Shown here: positions 34,512-53,657 of the stretch, piece by piece | Layout: the number at the start of each line of letters is the position of its first letter | Position numbering within the stretch: the first letter of the stretch is position 1 | NCBI GenBank assembly: GCA_027061995.1 | Contig: JAMOUT010000075.1 | Coordinates: 64,092 to 120,289, forward strand | Reading direction: 5' to 3' | DNA from: Candidatus Aminicenantota bacterium | GTDB lineage: Bacteria; Acidobacteriota; Aminicenantia; JAMOAD01 | Length of the DNA stretch: 56,198 nt | Made by a program: the position numbers and the translations under genes | Notes under the pieces: model-generated | Databases searched by the model: none | What the model was told of the DNA's origin: nothing | What the model saw: the letters and a program-made list of their open reading frames with translations, nothing else

Positions 34512-36623
34512 ATGATAAATAGTAAAAATAATCATTTTGTTCTTATATTATCAATACTTGGTATAATCTTTGTAAATCTGTTATTTTTAATGGTATCAGT
34601 TAATCCGGGGCTAATTGTTTTTTCCGATATTATTTTTGCTATTTTGGAAGTCATTTTTAAATTTTTAGAACATAAAATTACCCCGTATCTGTTTTTTTTG
34701 CTCTCACCTATTTTATTGATTATTTTTTTCACCACGGATGATTTTTTAATAAGATTATCTCTTCTGTTGATTATCTCATATTTGACATATTTTATAATCG
34801 AGGGATTTTCACTTAAAATCAATTTTAAATCTGACTGTAGAGCTGTTTATCTGCTATTTCTTTTATTTTTGTTTTTTTTAAGCTTTTTGTTTTATTTTAA
34901 AAGAATATATCTTTCGGGTGATGAACCTCACTATCTTATAGTCTCCCAAAGTTTAACGGAAGACGGGGATTTTAATCTGAAAAATAATTATGAAAATAAG
35001 AGATATCTTAAATTTCATCCGACAAAACTTGAACCTCACGCTTATAAACGAAATGGAAAATTATTATCTTTTCACCTTCCCGGTGTCTCTCTTTTAATGA
35101 CTCCTTTCTATTTTCTTTATAAATTCACAGGTTATTCCATTCCTCCGCAACTGTTTTTCAGATTATCAATATCAATTATCAATTCATTTTTCGCATTACT
35201 TTTATATCTGATTTTCAGCTTCTTTGTCAAAGAAGAAAAAAATATTTTATCTTTTTTATTTATGCTTATGATTATTCCAGTGTCAATTCATTCCATTCAT
35301 ATATATCCCGAGATACCCTCGGCGATTCTGGTCTTATCCGCAATATATTTCGGTATTTTAAAGGATAATGATCTTTTGTTCGGATTATTTATATCCCTTA
35401 TTCCATGGTTTCATATTAAATATATCCCTGTTGTAATCATCATATTGATTTTTTATCTGTATAATAAAATTAAAAATAGAGATATAAAATTTCTGACTAA
35501 GTTTTTGATTTTTCCTTTCATAAGTTCAATTTTGTTTTCAATTTTCATGATTTCTCAATACGGATTTTTAAATCCGATGAAAATATTTCCGGCCGGAGAT
35601 TATATGAAAATCCCTTTAATTCAAATGCTTGAAACTTTTTTTGCTTTTATGTTTGATCAAAGAGACGGATTTTTATTTTATTCTCCCGTATATTTTCTGT
35701 TTTTTTATGCTGTTTTTAAGGTAAAAACAATCGAAAAAAGATATAAAGTGTTTTTTCTTTCAATTTTACTTATATATATGTTTTTTCACTCTATAACAAC
35801 CATTAGGGGAGCTTATGCTCCCGCAGCAAGACCAATGGTGTTTGTTATTTGGGTAGTGATTTTATTTATTGCGATTTATTTTTCGGAGAATAATCAAAGA
35901 GGGTTTATTGTTAAATCTGTTATAGGATTTACGGTTTTTTTGAATCTTATCATTCTAAATTATCCCTCTTTTATCTATCAACCGGTAATATCATCCACAA
36001 CCGAAAGAAGCTCTGCTTTATTCAGGTTTCTCGGAAGTGAAAATTTTAATTTTTACAAATTGTTCCCCTCTTTTTTAAAAACCGATAATTCATCCTATTA
36101 TGCTAATTATTTTTGGTTAGGATTGATTTTATTAATACTCCTGAACTCAAAATATGAATTTATTAAATTTAAGATGGATAAAAAAGGAAATCTTTTTGCT
36201 TCATTAATAGTGTTTTTTCTGTTTTTTTACGGAATTCTTTTGTATCCGCATGTTTACAAAGGATATTATTGGAACACGGGAAATATCGGATTCTTTGTTA
36301 ATTCAAAGAATTTTATTAAGATAAATGATAAAAAATTCAGATTGAAAACGAATGAAAAATATCTGATACTTTTCGATTCTAAAAAGATGAATAAAAGGAA
36401 GGTAAAATTCAAATTATTTTCTTATAATGATAAAAAATTTAATTTAGAAGTAAAAACAGGATTAAAAGAGATAATTACAAAAGAGATAAATGGGAATATA
36501 AAGCTTAAAATTGATGTTTTCAGATTAAAGAGAATCAAAATTTCCAATATCTATTATCCTTATATTAGTATAAAAATTGATACGAGTAAAAGGATTAATG
36601 CAATTTATTCGATAATAGAGTAA
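34512..36623 (+). CDS. GT-C family membrane glycosyltransferase-like protein
   Basis: A 703-residue protein with about twelve or more membrane helices and very Phe/Leu/Ile-rich composition. After the fourth helix the loop holds YLSGDEPHYLIVSQSL (Asp137-Glu138), the acidic pair typical of GT-C enzymes that use polyprenyl-phosphate sugars, and GKLLSFHLPGVSLLMTPFY follows as in related ArnT/PMT-like proteins. The last about 110 residues form a soluble, Lys-rich beta domain. It may add a sugar to a lipid or protein outside the inner membrane. GGAAAAG is a weak ribosome site. The three-gene operon downstream has its own promoter. Confidence 0.78.
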   Translation: MINSKNNHFVLILSILGIIFVNLLFLMVSVNPGLIVFSDIIFAILEVIFKFLEHKITPYLFFLLSPILLIIFFTTDDFLIRLSLLLIISYLTYFIIEGFSLKINFKSDCRAVYLLFLLFLFFLSFLFYFKRIYLSGDEPHYLIVSQSLTEDGDFNLKNNYENKRYLKFHPTKLEPHAYKRNGKLLSFHLPGVSLLMTPFYFLYKFTGYSIPPQLFFRLSISIINSFFALLLYLIFSFFVKEEKNILSFLFMLMIIPVSIHSIHIYPEIPSAILVLSAIYFGILKDNDLLFGLFISLIPWFHIKYIPVVIIILIFYLYNKIKNRDIKFLTKFLIFPFISSILFSIFMISQYGFLNPMKIFPAGDYMKIPLIQMLETFFAFMFDQRDGFLFYSPVYFLFFYAVFKVKTIEKRYKVFFLSILLIYMFFHSITTIRGAYAPAARPMVFVIWVVILFIAIYFSENNQRGFIVKSVIGFTVFLNLIILNYPSFIYQPVISSTTERSSALFRFLGSENFNFYKLFPSFLKTDNSSYYANYFWLGLILLILLNSKYEFIKFKMDKKGNLFASLIVFFLFFYGILLYPHVYKGYYWNTGNIGFFVNSKNFIKINDKKFRLKTNEKYLILFDSKKMNKRKVKFKLFSYNDKKFNLEVKTGLKEIITKEINGNIKLKIDVFRLKRIKISNIYYPYISIKIDTSKRINAIYSIIE

Positions 36624-36689: not shown

Positions 36690-36709
36690 TATATTAGGAG
36701 TTCATAGTA

Positions 36710-37978
36710 TTGAGAACCATTAAAAAAGATATTATTAACAAATTCAAATTATATGTTTCTTCAGGTAAAGTTAAGTTTTATAAAAGATACGGGATGCGGT
36801 TTGTAATGGGTAAAAGGGAAGGTTCCTTTATCTCGGATATTGACGGTAAAAAGCAACTTTTGAATCTTCATTGCAATGGGGGAGTCTTTAATCTCGGGCA
36901 TAGGAACAGAGAATTGATAGAGATTTTAAATAATGCAATGAAGATGTATGATATAGGGAATCATCATCTTATCAGTAAACCGAGAGCCGAGCTTGCGGAA
37001 TATATCTCTTATTTAATGCCGGAGGATCTTAATTATACGATTTTCGGTGTCAGCGGAGGAGAGGCCATAGATACCGCCATAAAAATTGCCCGGGGTTATA
37101 CGGGAAAAAGAAAAATAATATCCGCAAAAGGGGGATATCACGGGCATACGGGTTTAGCTCTTGCAGCCGGAGATAAAAAATACAGAGAACCATTTAATTC
37201 CTCCTCTTCCGATTTTCTCCAAGTTGAATTTAATAATATAAATTCTTTGGAAGAAAAAATTGATAGGGAAACGGCAGCTGTTATTTTTGAAACAATACCC
37301 GCAACTCTCGGTATGCCTATTGCCGATAATGATTATTTTAAAAAAGTTAAAAGGATATGTGAGAAAAACGGAGCATTATTAATACTTGATGAAGTTCAAT
37401 CCGGTTTGGGAAGAACGGGAAAACTTTGGGCATTTGAACACTTTGATGTTGTTCCCGATATTGTTGTTCTGGGAAAAGGTTTATCGGGAGGGATATATCC
37501 TATTACCGCAACTATTATAAGAAAAAATTTGGAAAAAATATTTAAGAAAGACCCTTTTATCCATATCTCAACTTTCGGAGGGGCTGAACCCGGAGCGGTT
37601 GTTGCCAAAAGAGTTCTTGAGATAGTATCAAATGAATCTTTTTTAAAAAGTGTTAATCTGAAATCAGAGTTATTCTCCCTTTATTTTGATAAATTAAAGG
37701 AAAAAGACCAGGGTTTTATAAAAGGTTTAAGAAGAATAGGTTTAATGATGGGGATAGAATTAAAAGATGATTTTTCAGGACCTGCCATGACAAAAGCGGC
37801 TTTTGATAAAGGGGTTTTATTAGTATATGCTAATAATGATAAATCCATTGTTCAGCTTTTACCCCCTTTGACAATCGGGGAAGAGGAGATAGAACTTTCT
37901 TTTGAACTATTGGAAAAATCCGTAAAAAGAGCAAAGATTATAAGATATCTGTTAAAAATAATAGGGGGATCATCATGA
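36710..37978 (+). CDS. Class III PLP-dependent aminotransferase, substrate unknown
   Basis: A 422-residue fold-type I enzyme. The cofactor lysine is Lys256 in VVLGKGLSGGIYP; Asp227 in LILDEVQSGLGRTGK binds the pyridine nitrogen; GVSGGEAIDTAIK and AKGGYHGHTG are typical of the class. The start is a TTG with AGGAG 9 bases upstream; the first ATG lies 28 codons in and would cut the fold. It is closer to the omega-aminotransferase/4-aminobutyrate group than to ArgD by feel only. The stop overlaps the next ATG by 4 bases. With a kinase-like protein and a C69 hydrolase it forms a tight operon not matching a pathway I know. Confidence 0.9.
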   Translation: MRTIKKDIINKFKLYVSSGKVKFYKRYGMRFVMGKREGSFISDIDGKKQLLNLHCNGGVFNLGHRNRELIEILNNAMKMYDIGNHHLISKPRAELAEYISYLMPEDLNYTIFGVSGGEAIDTAIKIARGYTGKRKIISAKGGYHGHTGLALAAGDKKYREPFNSSSSDFLQVEFNNINSLEEKIDRETAAVIFETIPATLGMPIADNDYFKKVKRICEKNGALLILDEVQSGLGRTGKLWAFEHFDVVPDIVVLGKGLSGGIYPITATIIRKNLEKIFKKDPFIHISTFGGAEPGAVVAKRVLEIVSNESFLKSVNLKSELFSLYFDKLKEKDQGFIKGLRRIGLMMGIELKDDFSGPAMTKAAFDKGVLLVYANNDKSIVQLLPPLTIGEEEIELSFELLEKSVKRAKIIRYLLKIIGGSS

Positions 37979-38883
37979 ATGAGCTTAGAATACTTGAAGA
38001 TTTCGAAAAAAAATTAATTCCGCATGCACCCGAAAAATCATCTGTCCGACCTGAAATAATAGGCTATGGGGAGATATCCACGATATTTAAGATAGATAGT
38101 ATAAAAGGATATGCTTTTAAAAGACTCCCCCTTTTTAAAAAAAGGGAGAATGCTTTAAGATATGAAGAAAATTATAAAAAATACTGTGAATTTTTAAGAA
38201 AAGCGGGGTTAACTCTTCCTGAAGATAAAACGATTATTATTGATATTAAAAGGACCCCTATCTCTTTTTATATTGCACAGAAAGAGCTTCCCTCTAATTC
38301 AATAGGGAATAAACTGATATTTAATATTGATGTTGAAAAGATTAAAATACTCTTTAGTAGGATTATAAAAGAGATAAAGAAAGTTTGGGAATTTAACAAA
38401 GATAATGCAGGGAGTGTAGAATTATCAATTGACGGACAACTTTCCAATTGGGCTCTTGTAGGGGAAAAACTCTTTTTCATAGATACAAGCACTCCCCTTT
38501 TTAGGTTAGAAGGGAAAGAGCAACTTGACCCCGAACCTTTGCTGAAAAGTGCACCCGGATTTTTAAAATGGATATTAAAACTGTTCTTTCTTGAAGATGT
38601 AATGAATCGTTATTATGATGAAAGATTGGTTTACATTGATTTTGCAGCTAACCTTTATAAAGAGCAGAAAGCCGAACTTATACCTATGACACTCAAGATT
38701 ATTAACAAGAATTTATCCGAAGGTTTAAAACGGATAGAGATTGAAGAGGTTGATAAATATTATAAAGAGGATAAGATGATTTGGACGCTTTTTCTTTCAT
38801 TCAGAAAGTTTGATAGATTTATAAAAACAAAAATATTAAGAAAAAGGTATGAATTTATACTGCCGGGAAAAATAAAGAGGTAA
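37975..38883 (+). CDS. Kinase-like fold protein (DUF6206-like), function unknown
   Basis: A 302-residue soluble protein. It shows a sketch of a protein-kinase/aminoglycoside-phosphotransferase fold: a Gly loop IGYGEISTIFKI (29-40), Lys49 in YAFKRLP, a catalytic-loop-like DGQLSNW (Asp153, Asn158) and a metal-binding-like FIDTST (Asp170). The usual catalytic-loop His is missing. I believe it belongs to a family of uncharacterised domains (DUF6206), from memory only. ATP binding and small-molecule phosphorylation are plausible but unproven. It overlaps the aminotransferase gene by 4 bases and lies 3 bases before the C69 gene. Confidence 0.75.
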   Translation: MNELRILEDFEKKLIPHAPEKSSVRPEIIGYGEISTIFKIDSIKGYAFKRLPLFKKRENALRYEENYKKYCEFLRKAGLTLPEDKTIIIDIKRTPISFYIAQKELPSNSIGNKLIFNIDVEKIKILFSRIIKEIKKVWEFNKDNAGSVELSIDGQLSNWALVGEKLFFIDTSTPLFRLEGKEQLDPEPLLKSAPGFLKWILKLFFLEDVMNRYYDERLVYIDFAANLYKEQKAELIPMTLKIINKNLSEGLKRIEIEEVDKYYKEDKMIWTLFLSFRKFDRFIKTKILRKRYEFILPGKIKR

Positions 38884-38886
38884 ACC

Positions 38887-40197
38887 ATGTGTGATACATT
38901 TATAATAAAAGAAAAAGGTATGATTTTTTTCGGGAAAAATAGTGATAGGGAACCAAATGAAGCACAGCTTCTTGAACATTATCCTCCTCGTGAATTTAAA
39001 AAGGGGGAAAAGATTAAAACAACTTATCTTGAGATTGAGCAAAAGAATAGGACAAACGGGATAATAATCAGCAGGCCCTTTTGGATGTGGGGAGCTGAGA
39101 TGGGAGTTAATGATAAGGGGGTTGTCATAGGGAATGAAGCTGTTTTTACAAAAATGCCGTATAGGAAAAAAGGGGTTTTAACAGGGATGGATATTTTGAG
39201 ATTAGCTCTTGAAAGAGGTTCTTCCGCCGAAGATAGTGTTGATATAATAATCTCTCTTATTAATGATTACGGACAGGGGGGGATTTGCGGATTAGAAGAT
39301 AAAAGAATGGCTTATCACAATAGCTTTCTTATTGCGGATAAAAGGAAAGGGTTCGTTTTGGAAACAGCGGGTAAATTCTGGGTTTATAAAGAGGTTAAGG
39401 ATTTTCATGCAATCTCAAACAGACTAACGATTGGTGAATCATTCGATAATATACATCCCGAGACAATTGATTTTGTCAGAAAAAAGGGGTGGTTAAAAAA
39501 GGGGAAGAATTTTAATTTCGGCAAAATATTTTCAGATTATCTGTTTACAAAATTTTCAGGCTCAAAACCTCGATTATCAAGAGCAATCAAACTATTAAAA
39601 GATAAAAAGGATGATTTTTCCCTTAAAGATGCTTTTTCAATTTTGCGGGATCACGGGGAAGGGGATTATAATCCTGATTCCCATTTCACGGGAGATTATA
39701 TATGTGCCCATGCCGGTAATTTTATAACAAGAAAAGCCACTCAAACCGTAAATTCTTTTGTTGTGAAAAACCAAAAAGATAAAATCGATATATGGTCAAC
39801 GGCGACTTCATCGCCATGCACAGCCATATTTAATCCGATTTCTTTTAAATATTTTCCGAATTTCGGGGATAAAGCGGATTCCCGTTTTAATAATAATATA
39901 TTTTGGTGGCAACATGAATTATTGTATAGGGAAGCTCTAAGGGATTTTTCAAACCGAATTTTGGTTTTTAAGGATGAGATTACGGAGATAGAAAATAGAT
40001 TAGTTAAAAAAATGGGGAAAAGTGATTTTACGGAAAACTCCGAATTTTACTCTGATAATATAAGGTTTTCCGCTGAAAAATACAAAGAGTGGTATAATTT
40101 GATAAAAGAAAGAAAACCCCATAGGAGAGCCAAATTTATCTTTCGAAGTTTTTGGAACAGGCAAAATAAAAAAGCGAGATTAAATATTAAATTATAA
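38887..40197 (+). CDS. C69/secernin-like Ntn hydrolase
   Basis: A 436-residue protein of the dipeptidase/secernin group. The protein starts MCDTFI, so Cys2 becomes the N-terminal nucleophile after removal of Met, with no propeptide. Family segments follow: FFGKNSDREPNEAQ, GVVIGNEAVFTK, GQGGICG, HAISNRL and ICAHAG. No signal peptide, so it is cytosolic. Family members cut peptide or other amide bonds at the amino end, but substrates are mostly unknown. It is 3 bases after the kinase-like gene, last of the operon. Confidence 0.88.
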   Translation: MCDTFIIKEKGMIFFGKNSDREPNEAQLLEHYPPREFKKGEKIKTTYLEIEQKNRTNGIIISRPFWMWGAEMGVNDKGVVIGNEAVFTKMPYRKKGVLTGMDILRLALERGSSAEDSVDIIISLINDYGQGGICGLEDKRMAYHNSFLIADKRKGFVLETAGKFWVYKEVKDFHAISNRLTIGESFDNIHPETIDFVRKKGWLKKGKNFNFGKIFSDYLFTKFSGSKPRLSRAIKLLKDKKDDFSLKDAFSILRDHGEGDYNPDSHFTGDYICAHAGNFITRKATQTVNSFVVKNQKDKIDIWSTATSSPCTAIFNPISFKYFPNFGDKADSRFNNNIFWWQHELLYREALRDFSNRILVFKDEITEIENRLVKKMGKSDFTENSEFYSDNIRFSAEKYKEWYNLIKERKPHRRAKFIFRSFWNRQNKKARLNIKL

Positions 40198-40266: not shown

Positions 40267-41331
40267 TCAGATTCTATCAGCTATCAAATCTCCGATTTTT
40301 GATGTTGACAATGGTTTTTCATCTATAATATCTCTTGTCCCTAACCCTTCATTAATAACTGATTCAACCGCTTTTCTTATGTCGTCCGCTGCTTCTCTCA
40401 TGTCAAAGGAATATTCAAGCATCATTGCAACAGACAATATCTGAGCTATCGGATTAGCAACCCCTTTCCCTGCTATATCGGGAGCGGAACCGCCTGCGGG
40501 CTCATAAAGATTAATATCTCCTCCGAATGAAGCTGAAGGAATCATTCCCAAAGAACCTGCTATGGCTGCTGATTCATCCGATAAAATATCTCCGAAAAGA
40601 TTTGTCGTCAGGATAACATCAAACTGAGAAGGGTTGAGAATCAGTTGCATAGCCGCATTATCAACATAAAGATGATTAAGTTCAACGACGGGATAATCTT
40701 TAGAGACTTCTTCCACTACTCTTCTCCAAAGCATTGAGCTGTATAAAACATTGGCTTTGTCAACGGATGTAAGTTTGCCTTTTCTCGCTTTTGCAATATC
40801 AAAACCAACTCTTGCAATTCTTTCCACGATATCTTTTTCATAAACCATGGTATCAAGAGCTTTTTTATCAGTTATTTGTTTCGGTTGCCCGAAGTATATT
40901 CCGGATGAAAGTTCCCTGACTGTTATTAAATCTATTTTTCCTTTTAAAACCCTTTTAGAGAGTGGACTGGTATTTTTCAGCTTGTCATAAACCACAACCG
41001 GTCTTAGATTTACAAAAAGATTCAAAAGTTTTCTTAAACCGAGCAGTCCCCCTACTTCAGGATTTTTTTCCGGAGGATAATGATCCCATTTCGGTCCCCC
41101 TATGCTCGCAAGAAGAACCGCATCCGAGTTTAAGCAGATCTCTTTTGTTTCATCCGGCAAAGGGGAGTCGTATTTATCAAGAGCAGCCCCCCCTATATAT
41201 CCGAAATTTAACTTAAACACAATATCATATTTTTTTCGAACCTTTTCAAGAACTTTTAATCCCTCTTCCATAATTTCGGGACCTATCCCGTCTCCGGGTA
41301 AAACACATATATTTCTTTGAAATTCACCCAT
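40267..41331 (-). CDS. leuB: 3-isopropylmalate dehydrogenase
   Basis: A 354-residue NAD-dependent decarboxylating dehydrogenase of leucine synthesis; LeuB-type enzymes often also serve citramalate-derived 3-methylmalate in the isoleucine branch (family knowledge). Visible motifs: GDGIGPEIMEEGLKVL, SIGGPKWD, the substrate segment LLGLRKLLNLFVNLRPV, and NLFGDILSDESAAIAGSLG; the cofactor region has EPAGGSAPDIAGKG. Last gene of the ilv-leu operon; it overlaps leuD by 8 bases with GGAGAAAAAG before the ATG. Confidence 0.97.
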   Translation of the reverse strand: MGEFQRNICVLPGDGIGPEIMEEGLKVLEKVRKKYDIVFKLNFGYIGGAALDKYDSPLPDETKEICLNSDAVLLASIGGPKWDHYPPEKNPEVGGLLGLRKLLNLFVNLRPVVVYDKLKNTSPLSKRVLKGKIDLITVRELSSGIYFGQPKQITDKKALDTMVYEKDIVERIARVGFDIAKARKGKLTSVDKANVLYSSMLWRRVVEEVSKDYPVVELNHLYVDNAAMQLILNPSQFDVILTTNLFGDILSDESAAIAGSLGMIPSASFGGDINLYEPAGGSAPDIAGKGVANPIAQILSVAMMLEYSFDMREAADDIRKAVESVINEGLGTRDIIDEKPLSTSKIGDLIADRI

Positions 41332-41830
41332 CTTTTTCTCCTTTTACAAGATTTTTCGCATAATTTATCCATCCACCGCTTAATATGATCTCTTTCATGA
41401 AATCCGGATATGATTTAAATTCATATTTTTTCCCAGTTTTTTCATTCTCCATAATCCCTTCGTTAAAATCAACCCTAACGATATCTTCTTCCTTAAATCC
41501 CGATATATCTTTAATCTCAATAATCGGAAGCCCTATGTTAATACAGTTTCTTAAAAAGATTCTGGCAAAGGATTTTGCAATAACACAGGAGATTCCCGCA
41601 GCCTTTATTGAAATGGGGGCATGCTCCCTTGAAGAACCGCAACCAAAATTTTCTCCCGCAACAATAATTCCCCCCCTTATATCCTCTCTCTTACCGAACC
41701 CCGGCCTTGCATCCTCCATGCAGTATTTTGCAAGTTCTTCGGGGTCATGAGTATATAGATATCTTGCAGGGATAATCTCATCAGTATTAACATCATCACC
41801 AAAAACGAAAACTTTTCCTTTTATCTCCAT
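41324..41830 (-). CDS. leuD: 3-isopropylmalate dehydratase small subunit
   Basis: A 168-residue swivel-domain subunit that joins LeuC to isomerise 2- to 3-isopropylmalate. Motifs: FGDDVNTDEIIPARYL and FGCGSSREHAPISIKAAGI. A longer frame opens at 41893 inside leuC, but the ATG at 41830 has GGAGGAC close upstream and gives the family start MEIKGKVFVFG, so it was chosen. The size is that of the small, archaeal-type LeuD, matching the short LeuC. Confidence 0.96.
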   Translation of the reverse strand: MEIKGKVFVFGDDVNTDEIIPARYLYTHDPEELAKYCMEDARPGFGKREDIRGGIIVAGENFGCGSSREHAPISIKAAGISCVIAKSFARIFLRNCINIGLPIIEIKDISGFKEEDIVRVDFNEGIMENEKTGKKYEFKSYPDFMKEIILSGGWINYAKNLVKGEKDG

Positions 41831-41840
41831 TTTGTCCTCC

Positions 41841-43100
41841 TTATAAATTCTCAGGGTTTGAAATATACCCTTTAATACCACTTGCAGCCGCAACTACGGG
41901 AGAGGCAAGATAAACCTTACTCCCCGTATGCCCCATTCTTCCCACAAAATTTCTATTTGTAGTGGAAATCGCAACCTCTCCATCTGCCAAAACCCCCATA
42001 TGTCCGCCGAGACACGGTCCGCAGGTAGGTGTGGAAACAGCGCATTGCGCATCCACAAATATATCAAAAAGCCCCTCTTTGATTGCCTGCTTGTAAACTT
42101 CCTGTGATCCGGGGATTATTATACACCTGACATTTTTATCTATCTTATTCCCTTTGAATATTGAGGCTGCGGCCCTCAGGTCCTCCATTCTTCCGTTTGT
42201 GCAACTCCCGATTACAACCTGATCTATTTTAACTCTATCCTTTTCAACTTCTGAAACATCTTTTGAATTCGAGGGAAGAAAAGGAATTGCAACTTGAGGC
42301 TCTATCTCATCAAGATTAATATTAATTTGTCGAATGAAATTTGCATCTTCGTCCGGTGATAATTTTTCAACAACCACAGAACGAGATTTTTCATATTCCA
42401 AAGTAATCTCATCAATTGGGAATATTCCGGTTTTTCCACCAGCTTCTATTGCCATGTTGGAAATTGTAAACCTTGAATCCATTGATATATTCTTTACTCC
42501 CGGACCTCTGAATTCCAGAGATTTATAATTTGCTCCGCTTACTCCGAGAATAGAGATGAGCTTCAAAATAAAATCTTTTCCCGAAACATATTCTTTAAAA
42601 CTTCCTTCAATGTAAACATCAATACTATCAGGAACTTTAAACCATGCTTTTCCCATCATATATACACCTGCTATATCTGTCGAACCTACTCCCGTGGCAA
42701 AGGCTCCGAGTGCCCCGTATGTGCATGTATGGGAATCTGCCCCCACCACAATATCTCCGGATTTGACAATCCCTTGTTCAGGTAATAGAACATGCTCGAT
42801 TCCCATTCTTCCCAATTCAAAAAATTTTTCGACCCCCTGTTCTCTTGCAAATTCTCTTATCATCTTTACTTGCATGGCGGAACGGATATCTTTGTTGGGA
42901 ACAAAATGATCAGGGACAATTACTATCTGATCGGAAGAATAGACCCTCTTTAATCCTGTTTTATAGAATTCTTCTATTGCAATCGGAGCGGTTATATCAT
43001 TTGCAAGAGCTACATCAACTTCAAGAAGTATATAATCCCCCTGCTTTACTTTTTTTCCGTATTTGTTCGATAATAGTTTTTCCGTAAGAGTCATTCCCAT
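41841..43100 (-). CDS. leuC: 3-isopropylmalate dehydratase large subunit
   Basis: A 419-residue aconitase-family subunit. The 4Fe-4S ligands are in VIGSCTNGRMEDL and PTCGPCLGGHMG; GADSHTCTYGALGAFATGVG binds substrate. The length is that of the homoaconitase/isopropylmalate isomerase short form rather than the 466-residue enteric LeuC. The ATG follows the leuA stop directly, with AAAGGAGG inside the end of leuA. It may act on both isopropylmalate and citramalate, given cimA in the operon. Confidence 0.96.
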   Translation of the reverse strand: MGMTLTEKLLSNKYGKKVKQGDYILLEVDVALANDITAPIAIEEFYKTGLKRVYSSDQIVIVPDHFVPNKDIRSAMQVKMIREFAREQGVEKFFELGRMGIEHVLLPEQGIVKSGDIVVGADSHTCTYGALGAFATGVGSTDIAGVYMMGKAWFKVPDSIDVYIEGSFKEYVSGKDFILKLISILGVSGANYKSLEFRGPGVKNISMDSRFTISNMAIEAGGKTGIFPIDEITLEYEKSRSVVVEKLSPDEDANFIRQININLDEIEPQVAIPFLPSNSKDVSEVEKDRVKIDQVVIGSCTNGRMEDLRAAASIFKGNKIDKNVRCIIIPGSQEVYKQAIKEGLFDIFVDAQCAVSTPTCGPCLGGHMGVLADGEVAISTTNRNFVGRMGHTGSKVYLASPVVAAASGIKGYISNPENL

Positions 43101-44669
43101 TTAACTAACCTCCTTTATTTTTTTCATTCGATTATTTTTCCTTATCACTTTTGCGGCTTCAAGGGAAAAATTATATCTGTTAATAGCGTTTATATAGGCA
43201 TTCGCCGATGCTTCTATAATATCAGTGGAATCACCTCTTCCCGCATATCTGTTTTCACCGATTTTAAGGACAACTTTTACCTGCCCTTGAGCATCCCTGC
43301 CTGCTCCGACTCCATGTATAATATAATTTTCCAATTTTGTTTTTATCCCTATTGCAGAATCTATAGCATTAAAGACGGCGTCTATAGGCCCGTTTCCCGT
43401 ATTGGTTGACATCCTTTTATCTTTTCCTTTTTTTATTCGAACTTTAGCGGAAGGAGGCGCACTATTACCTGTTTTTACATCAAAATAGTCGAGTTTATAC
43501 CCGTCCGGATACTGACCGAGTATTGAAGATATAATTAGGAAGATATCTTCATCACAAACCTCTTTCTTTTTATCCGCAATTTTCTGAAATTTTGAAAAAG
43601 CTTTATTAAACTGCTCTTGAGATAATTTTATATTATAATGCTTGAGTTTCTCTTTGAAGGAGTGTTTTCCGGAATGCCTTCCCAATACCAAATTTTCCGT
43701 TCCCCTTCCCACCTGTTCAGGTTTTATTATTTCATAAGTGTTTCGGTTATTAATTACTCCGTGCTGATGAATACCGGCCTCGTGCAAAAAGGCGTTTTCT
43801 CCAACCACAGGTTTATTCCTCGGAATAATGAGACCCGTTAGACTTTCAAGAAGCTTTGAAGAATTATATAATTTTTCAGTTTTTATGTTCGTGATAAAGG
43901 GAAGATAATCCTTTCTGACATTTATTGCCATAACAAACTCCTCGAGAGAGCAATTTCCCGCCCTTTCACCTATTCCGTTGACAGTAACTTCCACCTGCGT
44001 CGCTCCGCTTGAAACAGCGGCAAGGGAATTTGCAACCGCAAGACCCAAATCATTATGACAATGAACAGACAGATCAATCTCGGAAATTTTGGGAATATTT
44101 CGGACAATTGATTTTATCAATTCGGAAAATTCTTCAGGTATGGTATAGCCTACTGTATCAGGGATATTAATTATTGTTGCACCACTTCTTATCGCAACAT
44201 CTATCACTTCAAACAGAAAATCTCTCTCTGTTCTTGTTGCGTCTTCGGGAGAAAATTCAATTTTGTCAAAATAATACTTTGCATACCTGATGTTCTCCCC
44301 TATGGCTTTTAAAATCTCTTTTTTACTCATTCCGAGTTTATACTTTCTGTGAATGGGAGAAGTGGCTATAAACAGATGAAGCATCTTATCTTCCGCCTCT
44401 TTCATAGCTTCATAAGCAGCATCAATATCACCTTTAACACATCTTGCAAGAGATACTATTGTGGCGTTTTTAACCTTCCTGCTTATCTCTTCCACAGCTC
44501 TAAACTGAACCTCGGACGATACGGGAAATCCCGCTTCAATCCTATCAACCCCCATGGATTCTAACATCATAGCCATCTCAACTTTTTGAGTGATCGACAT
44601 TGATGCTCCGGGAGATTGTTCACCATCCCTGAGAGTTGTGTCAAAAATTTTAATTTTTCTTTTTTTCAT
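43101..44669 (-). CDS. leuA: 2-isopropylmalate synthase
   Basis: A 522-residue enzyme condensing acetyl-CoA with 2-oxoisovalerate, the first step of leucine synthesis. The barrel starts [39 protein letters not shown] carries the metal-binding HxH-type pair; the C-terminal LeuA dimer domain (about 390-510), the site of leucine feedback, is complete with [15 protein letters not shown]. The ATG at 44669 is preferred because GGAGGTAAAA stands directly before it; a frame from 44690 adds only 7 residues. It overlaps the cimA end by 20 bases. Confidence 0.96.
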
Positions 44670-46284
44670 TTTTACCTCCGTTTTCATCATCTTTCATAAG
44701 CTTATATTTGAATGCATCTGTTAATGCTATCCATGATGCTTCTATAATATTATCGGAAACACCCACCGTTCCCCATTTGTTGTTCCCGTCGGTAGAACGA
44801 ATCAAAACTCTTGTTGTTGATTTTGTCGCAGCCTGCTCATTTAATATTCTGACTTTATAATCCACTAATTTTACCTCTTTAAGAGTGGGATAAAATTTTT
44901 CAAGCACTTTTCTCAAAGCTTTATCAAGAGCTTCAACAGGTCCCGCTCCGTCGGCGGAAGTATGATTAAGAGTATCTTTAATACCCAGTTCCTCAGAAAC
45001 CTCATCGGGAACAACCCCTTTTATGGTTGCTTCCGATTTCGGGATAGCTTTTTCAGAATCTTTCCATACAAAAACTCTGAAACCTTCAAGATCAAAATAT
45101 TTCTTAACTTTACCAATCAATGATTTGAAAAGAAGTTCAAAAGAGGCTTCAGCCCCTTCAAAATAATATCCTCTCGATTCCATCTCTTTAACCCTTCTAA
45201 GAATATTTTTAACGGCGGGAGAATTCTTGTCCACTTTTATCCCCAATTCTTCGGCTTTCTCAAGCATATTACTCCTGCCTGAAAGCTCTGAAACCAAAAT
45301 TGTCCTTTTATTACCGACAGCTTCGGGAGATATATGCTCATATGTTTTTGTCTCCCTTCTAACGGCTGATACATGGATACCCCCTTTGTGAGCAAAAGCA
45401 TTTTCCCCCACAAAAGGGAGATTTGTAACAGGTGCTCTGTTTGAAAGCTCTGATACAAGCCTTGATATAAAAGTTAATCTTTTCAAATTTTCCCGTGGAA
45501 TGGATTCTATTCCCATCTTAAAATAAAGGTTCGGAATAATACTACACAGGTTTGCGTTTCCGCATCTCTCCCCTATTCCGTTTATTGTTCCCTGAACTTG
45601 AGAAGCTCCCTCTTCAACCGCAATCAAGGAATTTACAACAGCCATATCAGAATCATTATGCGCATGTATCCCGAAAGGGGTTTTTAATTTTGCCTTAGTT
45701 TCGGAAATTATCTTTTTTAAAAGATTCCAAGGGGTTCCCCCGTTTGTATCCGCAAGGACAATAATATCAGCGCCCCCGTTTTCCGCTGCTTTCAGTGTTT
45801 TCAAGGCATATTCGGGATTCTCTCTGTATCCGTCAAAAAAATGCTCGGCATCATAAACAACCTCTTCCGAATATTTTTTGAGATACCTTATAGTTTCATA
45901 TATCATCTCAAGGTTCTCCTCAAGAGGAACTTTAAGAGCTTTTTCAACATGTAAATTCCATGATTTTCCGAATATTGTAAAAACCGGAGTTTCGGAGGAT
46001 ATAAGTGTTTGGATATTTTCATCTTCCTCAATCTTAATATAGGCTCGTTTAGTAGAACTAAACGAAGCTATTTTAGCCCTCTTCAGCTTTATTTTTTTTA
46101 TCTCATTAAAAAAAGAGATATCTTTGGGATTAGATCCCGGCCATCCGCCCTCAATATAATCCACCCCAAGCTCATCAAGTGTTTTTGCGATTTTAAGTTT
46201 ATCATCAAGGGAAAAAGAGATTCCCATCCCTTGAGAGCCATCCCTTAAAGTTGTATCAAAAATCTTAACTTTTCCATTATTCAT
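44650..46284 (-). CDS. cimA: (R)-citramalate synthase
   Basis: A 544-residue LeuA relative that condenses pyruvate with acetyl-CoA to citramalate, opening the threonine-independent route to isoleucine. It starts [20 protein letters not shown], where GSQG replaces the GEQSPG of LeuA, and has [16 protein letters not shown], both hallmarks of the CimA family. The C-terminal regulatory domain is present ([20 protein letters not shown]). The frame is open further up to 46344, but GGAGG at 46290-46294 fixes the ATG at 46284. It lies 16 bases after ilvD. Confidence 0.94.
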
Positions 46285-46300
46285 AATTACCTCCGATAAA

Positions 46301-47965
46301 TTATAGTTTGTCAAAAACAGCACCCGTATCAGCCGAACTGACAAAATGAGAGTATCTTTTTAGAAGTTGATTATCCTCTTTTGATTTAAAATTTTTTATT
46401 TTTTTTAATCTTTTATTTATCTCGTTTTCATCGACAATAAGATTCAGTTTTCTATTATTAAAATCAATCTCAACAATATCTCCGTCTTCCACTATTGCAA
46501 TCACACCATTTTCAGCAGCTTCAGGGGAGATGTGCCCTATAACAGCACCTTTTGAGCCACCCGAAAATCTCCCGTCCGTTATCAAAGCCACTTTATCAAT
46601 AAGTCCCATTCCCACAAGCGCGGCGGTAGGGGATAGCATCTCTCTCATTCCGGGGCCACCCTTCGGACCTTCATATCTTATGACTACAACGGCTCCCTCT
46701 TTAACCTCTCCAGCGAGAATTTTTTCCGATGCTAATTCTCCGTCCTCAAAAACAACAGCTTTCCCTTTATGATAAAGCATTTTCTCGGGAACACCGGAAA
46801 GTTTTGCAATCGCTCCGTTTTTGGCAAGATTGCCGTATAAAACGGCAAGTCCCCCGTTTTCATGATACGGGTTTTCAAGTGACCTTATCACATCATCACC
46901 AAAAATCATGGTATTTTTAATCAATTCCTTTATCGGTTTTTGATAAATTGTTCTCGCATCACCTTTAATAAGATTTTTCCCTTCAAGTCTTTTAAGCACA
47001 CCGTAAACTCCCCCCGCTTCATCAAGATCCTGTATATGATGGTTTCCGACAGGGGAAAGATTACAGATATGGGGGATTTTTCGACCCAATTCATCAAAAA
47101 GATCTATGCTAAAATCAATATTAAAAGCATCCGCAATAGCTTTAAGATGAAGGACGGTGTTTGTTGAACCGCCGAGAGCAAGATCAACCGCCACCGCATT
47201 TACGAATGAATCTCTGTTAACTATATCAGTGGGTTTAACCCCTTTTTCAACAAGGCTCATAACCAATCTTCCCGCTTCTTTCCCTATCCTTATCCTTTCC
47301 GAGTAAACCGCTGGAACAGTTCCGTTTCCACGGGGAGAAAGTCCCAGAGCTTCACTAAGTGCATTCATTGAATTTGCAGTAAAAAGTCCCGAGCAGGAAC
47401 CTGCTCCAGGGCAAGCAAAATTCTCTATATCATTTAATTCATTATCCGAAATCTTTCCCGCATTATAGCTTCCCACAGCTTCAAAAACAGTTACAAGATC
47501 TATCGGTTTTCCTTTATATGAACCCGCAAGCATCGGTCCCCCGCTGACAAATACCGAAGGGATGTTTAATTTTCCCATGGCCATAAGCATACCTGGGGTG
47601 ATTTTATCGCAGTTGGACACTAAAACCAATCCGTCGAAAGGGGTAGCATTTGCAACAAGCTCAACAGAATCCGATATAAGTTCTCTTGAGGGGAGTGAAA
47701 ATTTCATCCCTCTGTGATCCATGGCTATGCCATCACAAATACCTATTGTTGAAAATTCCATAGGGGTTCCTCCCGCCATCCTGATTCCGGCTTTAACAGC
47801 TTCCGTCAAGTTTTTAAGGTGAATATGTCCTGGTATTATCTCATTTGAAGAATTTGCAACTCCTATTATAGGTCTTGAAATCTCGTCATCACTAAATCCC
47901 AAAGCTTTAAAAAGGGAACGATGAGGTGCTCTTTTAACCCCTTTTTTCATTAAATCACTTCTCAT
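46301..47965 (-). CDS. ilvD: Dihydroxy-acid dehydratase
   Basis: A 554-residue FeS enzyme shared by valine and isoleucine synthesis. Cluster ligands appear in [11 protein letters not shown] and [17 protein letters not shown]; the C-terminal half has [19 protein letters not shown]. The ATG at 47965 begins one base after the ilvC stop and gives [19 protein letters not shown]; a TTG seven codons upstream lies inside ilvC. GGAAGGGG serves as ribosome site. Confidence 0.97.
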
Positions 47966-47966
47966 C

Positions 47967-48980
47967 TTATTCCCCTTCCGATTCAATATCTGATTTTACC
48001 CATGGCATCATCTTTCTCAGCTCTTTTCCCACTTTTTCAAGCTCATGTGATTTTTCAATTTTTCTCATACTATTTAAAAAAGGGGCTCCTGCTTTATTCT
48101 CCAATATCCACTCTTTTGCAAATTTACCTGTTTGAATCTCTTTTAAAATCTCTCTCATTTTTTTCTTTGTTTCTTCCGTAATAAGTTTATCCTGTGTTAC
48201 ATAATCACCGTATTCCGCAGTATTACTTATGGAATACCTCATTGTTGAAAAACCACCTTCATATATTAAATCAACAATCAGTTTCATCTCGTTTATACAT
48301 TCAAAATATGCCATCTCAGGTTGATAACCGGCTTCAACAAGAACTTCGAATCCCGCTTTCATCAAGGATGTTACCCCTCCGCAAAGGATGGCTTGCTCTC
48401 CGAACAGATCGGTTTCAGTCTCCTCTTTAAAACTTGTCTCTATTACCCCCGCTCTTGTCGCCCCTATCCCCTTCGCATAAGCAAGGGCAAGTTCTTTTGC
48501 TTTGCCAGTGGGGTTTTGATAAACGGCAAGAAGAGAAGGCACCCCTCTTCCCGATTCATACTCTCTTCTAACGAGATGTCCGGGACCTTTGGGGGCAATC
48601 ATTGAAACATCAACATCTTCAGGGGGAATAATTTGAAAATAACGGATGGAAAATCCGTGTGCGAACATCAACATCTTCCCTTTGGAAAGATACGGGGCTA
48701 TCTCTTTTGAATAAACTTCGGACTGAACCTCATCGGGAAGTAAAACCATAATAATATCGGACTCTTTAACAACATCGGGAATGGTTTTAACGGTTAATCC
48801 GAATTTTTCAGCCTTGTCTCGGCTGTTGCTTTCTTTCCTTAACCCTACCATAACTCTAACTCCGCTATCTCTTAAATTTAAAGAGTGAGCGTGTCCCTGA
48901 CTTCCGAAACCGAGAACCCCCACGGTTTTATTTTCAAGAAGAGAGAGTTCCGAATCTTTTTCATAGAAAATATTTGCCAT
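47967..48980 (-). CDS. ilvC: Ketol-acid reductoisomerase, class I
   Basis: A 337-residue short-form enzyme acting on acetolactate and acetohydroxybutyrate. It has the nucleotide motif [20 protein letters not shown], the NADP-type loop [12 protein letters not shown] with Arg and Ser residues, and the metal/acid site [14 protein letters not shown] plus [16 protein letters not shown]. Strong GGAGG before the ATG. The next gene ilvD follows with one base between. Confidence 0.97.
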
Positions 48981-49000
48981 TTTTTTATACCTCCGTTTTT

Positions 49001-49240
49001 TTATAAAAGATTTACATCAATAGTTTCAACAAATTTATAAAGTTGTTTTGAAGATTTACCTATATTATTATCTTCACCCGAAATTATCATGTTATATTTA
49101 CTTATACCGGGTTTATCCGTTTTAATAAGATTAATATTCTCAACTCTGAATCCCCTCTTTTCAAAAAAAGAGATAAGTTTTACAAGAACATTTGGCCTGT
49201 CATGGACAAGCACATTGACAATTCTTTTTGTTTTATTCAT
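49001..49240 (-). CDS. ilvN: Acetolactate synthase small subunit, minimal ACT-domain form
   Basis: A 79-residue protein consisting of one ACT domain ([20 protein letters not shown]). IlvH-type subunits have about 160 residues with a second C-terminal domain; that part is absent and no frame for it is found before ilvC. The size is like the E. coli IlvN or IlvM proteins. The ACT domain would carry valine feedback inhibition of IlvB (family knowledge). AAGGAGGG precedes the ATG; one base separates it from ilvB. Confidence 0.9.
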
Positions 49241-49241
49241 T

Positions 49242-50924
49242 TTAACCCTCCTTGTTTAATAAAATTTCATTTAACGAAGCACCCGCAGGCACCATGGGAA
49301 AAACATTTTCATCGGGATCAATCAATGCATGAATAAGCATAGGCTCTTTTGAAAGGGCAAGCTCTTTAATTATTTCTTCAGCCTTATCCCAATCTTTCAA
49401 TGTTTTACTTTTAATCCCTATAACCTCGGCAATCGCTCTGAAATCAGGATTGTCGGTAAAAGGGGTTGCGGAATATCTTTTATTATAAAAAAGCTCCTGC
49501 CATTGTTTTACCATTCCGAGATAAGCATTATCAACAATCAGAATTTTTACATTGAGAGCATATCTTTTTATTGTAATAAGCTCCTGAATATTCATCTGAA
49601 AACCACCGTCGCCTGATATTACCAACACTTGTTTATCGGGGTTGCCCACTTTTGCCCCCATAGAGGCGGGAAGACCGAAGCCCATTGTTCCGAGTCCTCC
49701 GGTCGTTAAAAAAGTTCGGGGTTTAGTGAACTTATAAAATTGGGCTGTCCACATCTGGTTTTGGCCGACATCAGAGACGACAATGGTATCTTCGGGAAAA
49801 TATTTGTTTGCAAGCTCTATAAGATATTGAGGCTTAAGTTTCTTGCCTTTCTCATACGAAAGGGGAAACTCTTTTTTTTGTTGGTTTAACTCTTTAATCC
49901 AATCCGAGAAATCGGTTTTTAATTCGGGAAAAGAGAGGAATTTTTCAAGGACTTCCTTAACATCTCCCTCTATCCCTATTATTGGTTGGACATTTTTTTC
50001 TATTTCGGATCTATCAATATCAACATGAACAATTTTTGCAAAAGGGGCGAATTTTTCAACATTGCCCAGTATTCTATCGCTGAATCTAACACCGAGAGCA
50101 AGAATCAAATCACTGTTTTGCACGGCATAATTTCCGTAGTATGTTCCATGCATCCCCAAACCGTCGAAATAAAGCTCCTCTCTCGAAGGATAGATTCCTT
50201 TTCCCATAAGAGTTGTAATAACGGGGATATTGTTTTTCTCCATAAACCTTTTTAAAATCTCTGTTGCTTCAGATATTATTATTCCTCCTCCCGAAATAAT
50301 CAGTGGTTTTTTTGACTCGGATAGCATATTATAAACCTTGTTGATTTTTTCATCGTCTATATCATGTCTTGGTGAATAATTTTTAATATCCCCCTTCACA
50401 ATTTTTCTCTCATCTATAAGAGCTTTCTGGATATCGGAGGGAATATCTATAAGAACAGGACCCGGCCTGCCCGATTTGGCAATATGAAAAGCAAGGTCAA
50501 GAGCGGGGGTAAGCTCTTTTATATCTTTTATAAGAAAATTCGCTTTTGTAATGGGAAGCGTAATCGCGGTTGTATCAACCTCCTGAAAAGCATCCGAACC
50601 CATCATTGAGACGGGAACTTGCCCCGTAATAATAACAAGGGGAACAGAATCCATATAAGCGGTAGCTATCCCCGTTACAGTATTTGTGGCTCCGGGACCG
50701 GATGTAACAACCACAACACCTGTTTTTCCGGTGGATCTTGCATAACCGTCGGCAGCATGAGTGCCTCCCTGCTCATGTCTCGGTTGAATAAGTTTTATTC
50801 TGTCCGTAAAATTGTAGAGTTCGTCAAAAAGCGGTATCACAGAACCTCCCGGATAACCGAAGATATACTCCACCCCTTCCTCAAGCAATTTTTTAATAAT
50901 AATTGACGCACCTGTAACTTTCAT
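49242..50924 (-). CDS. ilvB: Acetolactate synthase large subunit
   Basis: A 560-residue thiamine-diphosphate enzyme, first common step of valine, leucine and (with 2-oxobutyrate) isoleucine synthesis. Motifs: EYIFGYPGGSVIPLFDEL, RHEQGGTHAADGYARSTGK with the catalytic Glu, TSGPGATNTVTGIATAYMDS, and the ThDP motif GDGGFQMNIQELITI ending near NAYLGMV. GGAGGTATAAA lies before the ATG. It follows a leader of about 350 bases with a short Ile/Leu-rich frame. Confidence 0.97.
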   Translation of the reverse strand: MKVTGASIIIKKLLEEGVEYIFGYPGGSVIPLFDELYNFTDRIKLIQPRHEQGGTHAADGYARSTGKTGVVVVTSGPGATNTVTGIATAYMDSVPLVIITGQVPVSMMGSDAFQEVDTTAITLPITKANFLIKDIKELTPALDLAFHIAKSGRPGPVLIDIPSDIQKALIDERKIVKGDIKNYSPRHDIDDEKINKVYNMLSESKKPLIISGGGIIISEATEILKRFMEKNNIPVITTLMGKGIYPSREELYFDGLGMHGTYYGNYAVQNSDLILALGVRFSDRILGNVEKFAPFAKIVHVDIDRSEIEKNVQPIIGIEGDVKEVLEKFLSFPELKTDFSDWIKELNQQKKEFPLSYEKGKKLKPQYLIELANKYFPEDTIVVSDVGQNQMWTAQFYKFTKPRTFLTTGGLGTMGFGLPASMGAKVGNPDKQVLVISGDGGFQMNIQELITIKRYALNVKILIVDNAYLGMVKQWQELFYNKRYSATPFTDNPDFRAIAEVIGIKSKTLKDWDKAEEIIKELALSKEPMLIHALIDPDENVFPMVPAGASLNEILLNKEG

Positions 50925-51390: not shown

Positions 51391-51463
51391 GCCAATGTAG
51401 CTCAGTCGGTAGAGCAGCTGATTCGTAATCAGCAGGTCGGGGGATCGAGTCCCCCCATTGGCT
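51391..51463 (+). tRNA. tRNA-Thr (anticodon CGT)
   Basis: A full cloverleaf: acceptor GCCAATG with CATTGGC, D-stem GCTC/GAGC, anticodon stem GCTGA/TCAGC with loop TTCGTAA (anticodon CGT, reads ACG), T-stem GGGGG/CCCCC with loop ATCGAGT. The discriminator is T and CCA is not encoded. A run of six T including the discriminator follows directly and may terminate transcription. The 3' half overlaps the end of the hybrid kinase gene on the other strand. Confidence 0.96.
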
Positions 51464-53657
51464 TTTTTATCACAACCTCGTTTACTTTTTCTAATAAACT
51501 CGGGATTTTAAAAGGTTTCTTAAAACAATCAATAGCCCCGTTATCCAATAATTCTTGCACCTGTTCATTAAGAGTATAACCGGTAATAATGAGAACTTTT
51601 ATGTTTTTATCAAGTTTTTTCATTTCGTAAAAAAGCTCTCTTCCGTTTTTTTTAGGCATATTCAGATCCATAATGGTTAAAAGAATATTATCTTTTTTCT
51701 CTTTATAAAGATTATATCCCTCTTCTCCGTCTTTTGCTTGGATAACGCTGTATCCGCTTTCAGTTAATGCCTCTTTAAGCATCTCTCTTATCAAAACCTC
51801 ATCATCAACTATTAAAATTTCCCCTCTTTCCTTTATGTCAACTTTTATATTTTGCCTCTTAATTATACCTTGTTTATCTTTGTTTTCAGACTTTTTAACA
51901 GCAGGAAAATAAAGATAAAAGATACTTCCCTTCCCCTCTTTACTATCAAAAACCACATCCCCTTTGTGGTTTTTCATGATACCGTAAACAGTTGAAAGCC
52001 CGAGACCCTGTCTATTATTTTTTTCCGCTGTTGTGAAAAAAGGGAGAAAAACCTGATATCTGTTCTCTTCTTTTATCCCAATACCGGTGTCTTCCACCGC
52101 AACAACAAAATACTCTCCTTTTGTTAATTTACTTAAAGTTTCCTTGTTATTATCTCTTAATTTCCGTTTGTAAAGATGATAAGTCAATCTTCCTCCGTCA
52201 GGCATAGCCTGAATAGCATTGATGCTAACATTCATAATAACTTGTTTTATTTGATCGGGATCTCCGATTGTATATGCTTTTTCTTCTTCAATAATTTTTT
52301 CCATCTCTATGTTCTCCGGTTTTGTTGAGGTTATTAAATCAAAGACCTCTTTTATCTGTTCCTCCAAATCTATCTCCACCTTCAACATTTTTCCCTTTCT
52401 TGCATAGCCGAGAAGTTGTGAAACAAGTTTTATAGCTCTTTCTCCCGCAAGGCTCATTTTATCAAGAATTTTAACAATCTCTTTATCTTCACTGTTTCTC
52501 TTTTTTAAAAGATTTGTGAATCCTAAAATTCCAGCCAATATATTATTAAAAGAGTGAGCTATTCCACCCGCGAGTAATCCGACAGCTTCAAGCTTTTGAG
52601 ATTGATATATCTGTTCTTCTAATTTTATCTTTTCGGTAATATCCTTTTCTATAGCCATATAATAATATATTTCACCAAACCTGTTTTGTATGGGGGTTAT
52701 CGTTAGCTCCTGAATAATAAAATCCCCTTTTTTTGTTTTATTTATAATCTCTCCGTCCCATACTTTTCCCGCACTGATTGTTGCCCACAATTTTTCATAG
52801 AAAAGTTTATCATGTTTTCCGCTTTTTAAAATTCTCGGATTTTCCCCTATCGCCTCTTCATAAGAAAATCCCGTGATTTTTGTAAATGCCTGATTTACAT
52901 AAAGTATATCCCCCTCTTTATCGGTGATAACAATGGAGTGCCTAATATATTTCAACGCATCAAATATAGTGTTTAAAAAGATTTTTCCATCGTCAAAAGC
53001 GACCTTTTTCATCGTAAAACCGTTGATCTTAATAACATCCCCTTTTTGATTAATTGAGGGTATTGTTTGTTCTATAAGTGTTATAATCTTTCCGTCTCTT
53101 GTTTTTATTCTGTATTCCGCTATTGAGGGTTTATGACTTAAGATATTTAAAAGATACTCCTCGTAAATAGGCCAATCTTCTTCAAAAACGAGTTCAGGCA
53201 AACTTGTTTCTCCTTTATATATATCCTCCGTTTTATAACCTGTTATTTTTTCAAACCCCTTGCTAATAAAAACATACGAAAATCTGGAATTTTTTATATC
53301 AGCTTGCCAATTAAAAAAAATTGAATCAGCTGTTGTTTCCATTTTCTTGTTCTCTGCTATAGATTGATTCCCCCTCTTTTCAAAGATAATAAAAATAAAT
53401 ATCTTTTTTTGAAACAAAACTTTCTTTGCTTTAAATTCTATTCCATCTTCGGAAAAAACCAGTTTAAAATCGGAAAAACTTAAATCAGAGATTAAAGGCT
53501 CGATATAATTTTCAAATAATTTTTCAATAAAGTTTTCTTTTTTCCGAAGAAGTAAATCTGTTTTATTGTTTTTATAAACAAGGGTTCCTTCCAAATCTAA
53601 TATTATTATCCCTCTCTCATCATTATCAAGAATATTAAGATAAAAATCTATAACCAT
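51429..53657 (-). CDS. PAS-PAS hybrid histidine kinase with C-terminal receiver
   Basis: A 742-residue soluble signalling protein without membrane helices. Order: a PAS-like N-terminal region (about 1-95), PAS (about 105-218), PAS (about 228-345) with HSIVITDKEGDILYVN, HisKA with His368 in GGIAHSFNNILAG, HATPase with NVSINAIQAMPDGG, DTGIGI and GLGLSTVYGI, and a receiver (about 612-730) with Asp664 in TIMDLNMP and Lys714 in FKKPF. All catalytic residues are intact. The last 11 residues (KPMGGLDPPTC) are read from the antisense strand of the tRNA-Thr gene, so the original stop seems to have been lost. No partner gene is next to it. Confidence 0.94.
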   Translation of the reverse strand: MVIDFYLNILDNDERGIIILDLEGTLVYKNNKTDLLLRKKENFIEKLFENYIEPLISDLSFSDFKLVFSEDGIEFKAKKVLFQKKIFIFIIFEKRGNQSIAENKKMETTADSIFFNWQADIKNSRFSYVFISKGFEKITGYKTEDIYKGETSLPELVFEEDWPIYEEYLLNILSHKPSIAEYRIKTRDGKIITLIEQTIPSINQKGDVIKINGFTMKKVAFDDGKIFLNTIFDALKYIRHSIVITDKEGDILYVNQAFTKITGFSYEEAIGENPRILKSGKHDKLFYEKLWATISAGKVWDGEIINKTKKGDFIIQELTITPIQNRFGEIYYYMAIEKDITEKIKLEEQIYQSQKLEAVGLLAGGIAHSFNNILAGILGFTNLLKKRNSEDKEIVKILDKMSLAGERAIKLVSQLLGYARKGKMLKVEIDLEEQIKEVFDLITSTKPENIEMEKIIEEEKAYTIGDPDQIKQVIMNVSINAIQAMPDGGRLTYHLYKRKLRDNNKETLSKLTKGEYFVVAVEDTGIGIKEENRYQVFLPFFTTAEKNNRQGLGLSTVYGIMKNHKGDVVFDSKEGKGSIFYLYFPAVKKSENKDKQGIIKRQNIKVDIKERGEILIVDDEVLIREMLKEALTESGYSVIQAKDGEEGYNLYKEKKDNILLTIMDLNMPKKNGRELFYEMKKLDKNIKVLIITGYTLNEQVQELLDNGAIDCFKKPFKIPSLLEKVNEVVIKKPMGGLDPPTC

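Follow-up and report, generated by a model that had tools for sequence, protein, structure and literature searches.

The hydroxylysine and ethanolamine phospho-lyases have small-molecule kinase partners of the protein-kinase/APH fold. Both systems, hydroxylysine kinase with 5-phosphohydroxylysine phospho-lyase (PHYKPL) and ethanolamine kinase with ETNPPL, join a kinase-fold enzyme to a class III pyridoxal 5'-phosphate (PLP) enzyme without the Arg/Glu/Arg triad that handles carboxylates. Arg180 of ornithine aminotransferase (OAT) binds the carboxylate of the substrate, and its Glu235/Arg413 pair acts as a switch admitting 2-oxoglutarate (PMC5372011), and the putrescine aminotransferase YgjG retains Glu243/Arg426 for 2-oxoglutarate (PMC4244111). 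Key residues are also changed in PbfA, the (R)-1-hydroxy-2-aminoethylphosphonate ammonia-lyase, a class III 'aminotransferase' proven to be a lyase (PMC8154272). The secernins (SCRN1-3, peptidase family C69) are an animal-wide family with undefined substrates, and relatives in the same N-terminal nucleophile (Ntn) subfamily cleave N-acylsphingosine and N-acylethanolamine (PMC9140057); the glyoxylyl group of SCRN3 requires a Cys6-Asp7 pair (PMC9285064). Here we analysed a stretch of 56,198 nucleotides, hereafter the window, from a Candidatus Aminicenantota bacterium (GCA_027061995.1, contig JAMOUT010000075.1, positions 64,092 to 120,289, forward strand). It carries an operon encoding a class III PLP enzyme (AT), a DUF6206 protein and a C69 hydrolase, which may form a small salvage module. 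The parts are of known kinds; neither their combination nor the kinase family or PLP branch seems to have been described before. The features of the operon, in window positions, are as follows.

36696-36700, + strand: AGGAG, a Shine-Dalgarno-like sequence 9 bases before the TTG start of AT, read in the sequence
36710-37978, + strand: class III PLP enzyme (AT), 422 residues, annotated as aminotransferase type, catalytic Lys256, proposed phospho-lyase
37975-38883, + strand: DUF6206 protein (PF19709), 302 residues, predicted protein-kinase-like fold, proposed small-molecule kinase
38887-40197, + strand: C69 Ntn hydrolase of secernin type, 436 residues, Cys2-Asp3 nucleophile, proposed amine-freeing amidohydrolase

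The AT and DUF6206 frames share 4 bases (ATGA), with AGGGGGA upstream of the DUF6206 start, and C69 begins 3 bases past the DUF6206 stop; the open reading frames lie exactly as an earlier, sequence-only reading had described them, overlapping or within 3 bases of each other. Pfam assigned AT to Aminotran_3 (PF00202, E 5e-82), the middle protein to DUF6206 (E 1.2e-23, 84.1 bits for a gathering cut-off of 30.4) and the third protein to Peptidase_C69 (E 2.1e-6, 27.4 bits for a cut-off of 23).

Related loci were found by scanning genome contigs with the DUF6206 protein. The trio recurs in other Aminicenantes (64-80% identity), in SAR324 and in Desulfobacula and other delta-proteobacteria (about 43-52%), and the AT-DUF6206 pair is present in Chloroflexota as well. 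Within the phylum of the window the trio is rare (2 of 297 genomes). DUF6206 was detected in 4 of 301 Chloroflexota genomes, in 3 of 52 SAR324-group genomes and, by Pfam, in 38 of 291 Desulfobacula-class genomes, a number which rose to 44 once divergent copies were added with a custom profile; none was found on plasmids. AT adjoins DUF6206 on the same strand at 43 of the 49 DUF6206 loci. Of the remaining six, three are truncated by the end of a contig; L006, L081 and L082 are the genuine exceptions, and their genomes encode a related AT at another site. The gene order is reversed, DUF6206 then AT, in Chloroflexota (L124, L125) and SAR324 (L127), so that adjacency is kept and order is not. C69 comes next at 26 of 47 testable loci and lies elsewhere in the genome in 5 more genomes.

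Among the 291 Desulfobacula-class genomes, AT was found in 47, DUF6206 in 44 and C69 in 31; AT is present in 43 of the 44 DUF6206 genomes and DUF6206 in 28 of the 31 secernin genomes. The Fisher p values for co-occurrence (~1e-45 for AT/DUF6206, 2e-24 for C69/DUF6206) are exaggerated because related genomes are not independent. Protein distances of the three families correlate (r 0.69-0.88, 0 of 2000 permutations), with a contribution from shared ancestry. Six AT genomes that seemed to be without DUF6206 (G320, G384, G525, G465, G509 and G549) turned out to have divergent copies. Conservation and co-occurrence rule out a chance neighbourhood. A larger fixed operon is ruled out too: further neighbours vary from locus to locus, and there is therefore no fourth obligate gene. 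The sequence-only reading had taken the three genes for one functional unit, which this distribution bears out; it had missed the secernin likeness of C69 and the fact that AT plus DUF6206 is the obligate core, C69 being a frequent partner at about half of the loci.

Two further candidate partners were rejected. An importer of the SBP_bac_6 type comes after the pair in Desulfobacterota (L012, L086, L092, L095) and Chloroflexota (L124), and was not used as an argument because the two binding proteins are too distantly related. A glycerate 2-kinase lies near L078 and L099 only, which is too few. At another locus, a SelO adenylyltransferase gene, also of an atypical kinase fold, stands upstream of the AT-DUF6206 pair on the opposite strand (L085:4355-5848).

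In AT, Lys256 is kept in 41 of 41 aligned rows. Alignment places His146, Thr199 and Gln382 of the window enzyme at the positions of the carboxylate-handling Arg/Glu/Arg triad, and the keto-acid pair (E235/R413 in OAT, E243/R426 in YgjG) falls on Thr199 (41 of 41 rows) and Gln382 (42 of 43). Among solved structures, AT comes closest to putrescine and acetylornithine aminotransferases; YgjG (4uox), at about 30% identity, has the same fold and PLP lysine, but Glu243/Arg426 where the window AT has Thr199/Gln382. Arg/Glu/Arg is present in the other two class III enzymes of the window genome and in ArgD-like proteins from other hosts. With the residues that accept 2-oxoglutarate or glutamate in class III transaminases replaced, transamination by the window AT appears doubtful from its sequence. 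The triad positions read H/C/K in human ETNPPL (6tor) and N/T/K in a bacterial phospholyase (5g4i), as taken from PDB rows aligned to approximate query fragments, and loss of Arg/Glu/Arg is common to these two enzymes and the window AT. By analogy with them AT is proposed to be a phospho-lyase; since overall similarity puts it on the YgjG/ArgD branch rather than with ETNPPL, the claim is that it works like one, not that it is one. AT also resembles PbfA, a class III lyase with altered key residues encoded in a gene cluster for phospho-compounds, but its score of 210 bits is well under the NCBIfam PbfA cut-off of 525, and no phosphonate genes were recognised near the window.

A few loci depart from this residue pattern or its pairing. 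G391 has a His/Thr/Gln AT with no trace of DUF6206 beside it; G301 carries DUF6206 alone, and its AT retains Glu/Arg. A second AT-DUF6206 copy in Desulfobacterota (L137, G379:C184) has Leu in place of Gln382, and its AT match crosses two stop codons.

ATs with Thr or Ser and Gln form a single clade (support 100/98), made up of the DUF6206-linked enzymes and relatives from Pseudomonas, Burkholderia and Mesorhizobium; the closest matches from plasmid records (38-42% identity) keep Gln382 and have Thr or Ser at 199. The genes of these relatives stand beside APH-fold kinases or a phosphodiesterase in place of DUF6206. In Pseudomonas MPC6, one AT has an APH-fold phosphotransferase (PF01636) directly downstream, and a second is clustered with an APH kinase and a short-chain dehydrogenase/reductase; the first of these two ATs groups as sister to the SAR324 AT partnered by DUF6206. 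In Burkholderia cenocepacia, an aldehyde dehydrogenase gene lies directly downstream of AT, and a divergent APH/choline-kinase-like gene and an FAD (flavin adenine dinucleotide) oxidoreductase gene lie upstream. In Mesorhizobium and Phyllobacterium, AT comes after a type I phosphodiesterase and a peptide-type ABC importer. The common trait of these partners is the handling of phosphate esters, as a kinase makes one and a phosphodiesterase frees one, and this is the main reason for calling DUF6206 a small-molecule kinase and AT a phospho-lyase. The contexts of the relatives (APH kinase, phosphodiesterase, aldehyde dehydrogenase, short-chain dehydrogenase/reductase) look catabolic.

Sister ATs with Glu/Arg retained lack a neighbouring DUF6206; their genes stand in tandem AT clusters that also encode a small protein and an APC-type transporter. 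In Desulfobacterota, a recurring second cluster (L157, L158, L159, L161) contains canonical Glu/Arg class III enzymes, in tandem in L158 and L159, together with a protein of ~120 residues, SCP-2-like when judged by eye, and an amino-acid transporter of APC type. RidA was considered as a sign of lyase chemistry and discarded: the small gene between tandem sister ATs does not look like RidA by eye and has no PDB match.

The AlphaFold model of DUF6206, built from 12 sequences, reached a predicted local distance difference test (pLDDT) score of 84 and showed a kinase topology, and Foldseek matched it to protein kinases and APH(2'')-Ia with probability 1.00. A glycine loop (G30-Y-G32-E-I-S35), Lys49, Asp153-x4-Asn158 and Asp170 follow in the order expected of kinases, without variation in the rows covering them. 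Lys49, the beta3 lysine, is present in 48 of 48 rows, and Asp153 (catalytic), Asn158 and Asp170 (metal) in 49 of 49. Pfam returned no kinase match for DUF6206, and no sequence method links it to kinases; with sequence homology negative, the kinase claim rests on the predicted fold, the motif and the partner swap, from which kinase activity is likely.

Cys2-Asp3 is kept in 27 of 27 C69 copies, which supports a Cys Ntn hydrolase. The window protein is like SCRN1-3 in sequence and in its N-terminal Cys-Asp (32% identity to human SCRN1 over 345 residues, 181 bits, with an approximate SCRN1 query sequence), but it is bacterial and borne on an operon. Foldseek with a weak structure model placed the C69 dipeptidase 5img first and also matched bile salt hydrolases. 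As the substrates of human secernins are unknown (PMC9140057), no function was carried over to the window protein; its proposed role is that of an amidohydrolase that would free an amine. A fatty-acyl-CoA ligase gene comes next after C69 in L089 and L097 and next after DUF6206 in L068, which would suit a released fatty acid, though the loci are few. In L090, whose genome is without C69, an Amidohydro_2 protein (L090:7502-8431) sits between AT and DUF6206 and is possibly a replacement for C69.

From these observations we infer a kinase/phospho-lyase core with the secernin as supplier. The secernin-like C69 protein would cleave an amide into a carboxylic acid and an amino-alcohol; DUF6206, as a divergent member of the protein-kinase/APH fold, would phosphorylate the hydroxyl of the amino-alcohol with ATP; and AT, instead of transaminating, would eliminate phosphate and then ammonia from the O-phospho-amine to give an aldehyde or ketone. 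In their logic the last two steps would parallel ethanolamine kinase/ETNPPL and hydroxylysine kinase/PHYKPL, on another class III branch. The window differs from those systems in that its AT lies on the putrescine/acetylornithine branch with Gln for Lys, DUF6206 serves as the putative kinase and a secernin is added. Ethanolamine-like compounds are the simplest guess for the substrate. We hold this salvage module as a tentative preference, somewhat short of an even chance. A salvage route of amide hydrolysis, phosphorylation and elimination is more likely than synthesis by transamination. The sequence-only reading had been right about the class III PLP enzyme with Lys256, about a kinase-like protein lacking the catalytic His and keeping its Lys, Asp and Asn residues, for which a kinase-like fold was indeed predicted, and about the Cys2 amidohydrolase; its transamination was not borne out by the active-site comparison, and nothing points to the synthesis or peptide maturation that it had suggested. 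It had also known of no described pathway, in agreement with our search of a paper library, in which none on DUF6206 was found. The fullest version of this reading, a hitherto undescribed route that joins a bacterial secernin (perhaps bearing a glyoxylyl group or Cys nucleophile at its N terminus) to a DUF6206 kinase and a new class III phospho-lyase branch, is rather unlikely.

Several observations weigh against the salvage module. None of the three proteins has a known activity. AT scores 284 bits to the putrescine/acetylornithine side (YgjG) and 165 bits to the phospho-lyase 6tor, and its position 382 is Gln, where both solved phospho-lyases have Lys. In DUF6206, there is no His two residues before Asp153 (the HxD His) and no conserved alpha-C Glu in helix 57-76, the Foldseek TM-scores are low (at most 0.47), and hhalign detected no relation to APH (PF01636) sequences (probability 0.2%). 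The C69 model is poor (pLDDT 55), C69 is missing from 16 of the 44 DUF6206 genomes, and aldehyde dehydrogenases do not recur next to DUF6206 loci.

The position of AT among putrescine and acetylornithine aminotransferases also suits another explanation, in which AT is an unusual aminotransferase that converts an aldehyde or sugar into an amine, using a donor for which no carboxylate clamp is required; the kinase would phosphorylate the product or precursor and C69 would strip a protecting acyl group, after the logic of ArgB-ArgD-ArgE. A kinase, an aminotransferase and an amidohydrolase are indeed the arginine-pathway set minus its reductase. However, no reductase recurs beside the genes, the equivalents of Glu235/Arg413 are replaced in practically the whole clade, and the kinase slot can be occupied by APH kinases or by the Mesorhizobium phosphodiesterase, an exchange more in keeping with breakdown; we regard this explanation as unlikely. 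Loss of the keto-acid clamp would suit any reaction without a second substrate, and class III includes amino-acid racemases and dialkylglycine decarboxylase, which are among the matches listed. AT could then be a racemase, mutase or decarboxylase needing no keto acid, with DUF6206 phosphorylating its substrate or product, but its steady partner, which is either kinase-like or an enzyme of phosphate esters, points to a phospho-leaving group and makes this quite improbable. The missing HxD His and alpha-C Glu, together with top Foldseek matches to protein kinases, the MLKL pseudokinase among them, would agree with DUF6206 being a pseudokinase or a protein kinase that regulates AT and phosphorylates no small molecule. 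Lys49, Asp153, Asn158 and Asp170 are nevertheless invariant in all covering rows, as for a catalyst, and APH small-molecule kinases take the place of DUF6206 within the AT clade, so that such a regulator is the least probable of these explanations.

Around the operon, a gene for a 703-residue membrane protein, matching the LA_3751/3752 type of glycosyltransferase at 50.8 bits (under the family cut-off), lies on the same strand 86 bases upstream of the trio (34512-36623) and was not seen beside the trio at other loci. Convergent with the trio, on the - strand, a long run resembling branched-chain amino-acid synthesis (40267-50924) includes 354-residue LeuB-like and 189-residue LeuD-like proteins, judged by eye, and an acetolactate-synthase-type enzyme dependent on thiamine pyrophosphate, assigned by Pfam. 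A tRNA-Thr (CGT) gene (51391-51463, + strand) overlaps by 35 bases the 3' end of a 742-residue hybrid histidine kinase reading frame (51429-53657, - strand).

The operon ties the secernins and DUF6206, a family with no described function, to a PLP enzyme with a readable active site, and turns the question of secernin function into an enzyme assay on three proteins. If true, the salvage module in its fullest version would give DUF6206 its first biochemical role and the secernins their first pathway context. It also carries a warning for annotation: a set of genes annotated as aminotransferases is probably misnamed, and a residue test, Thr/Gln versus Glu/Arg, finds them.

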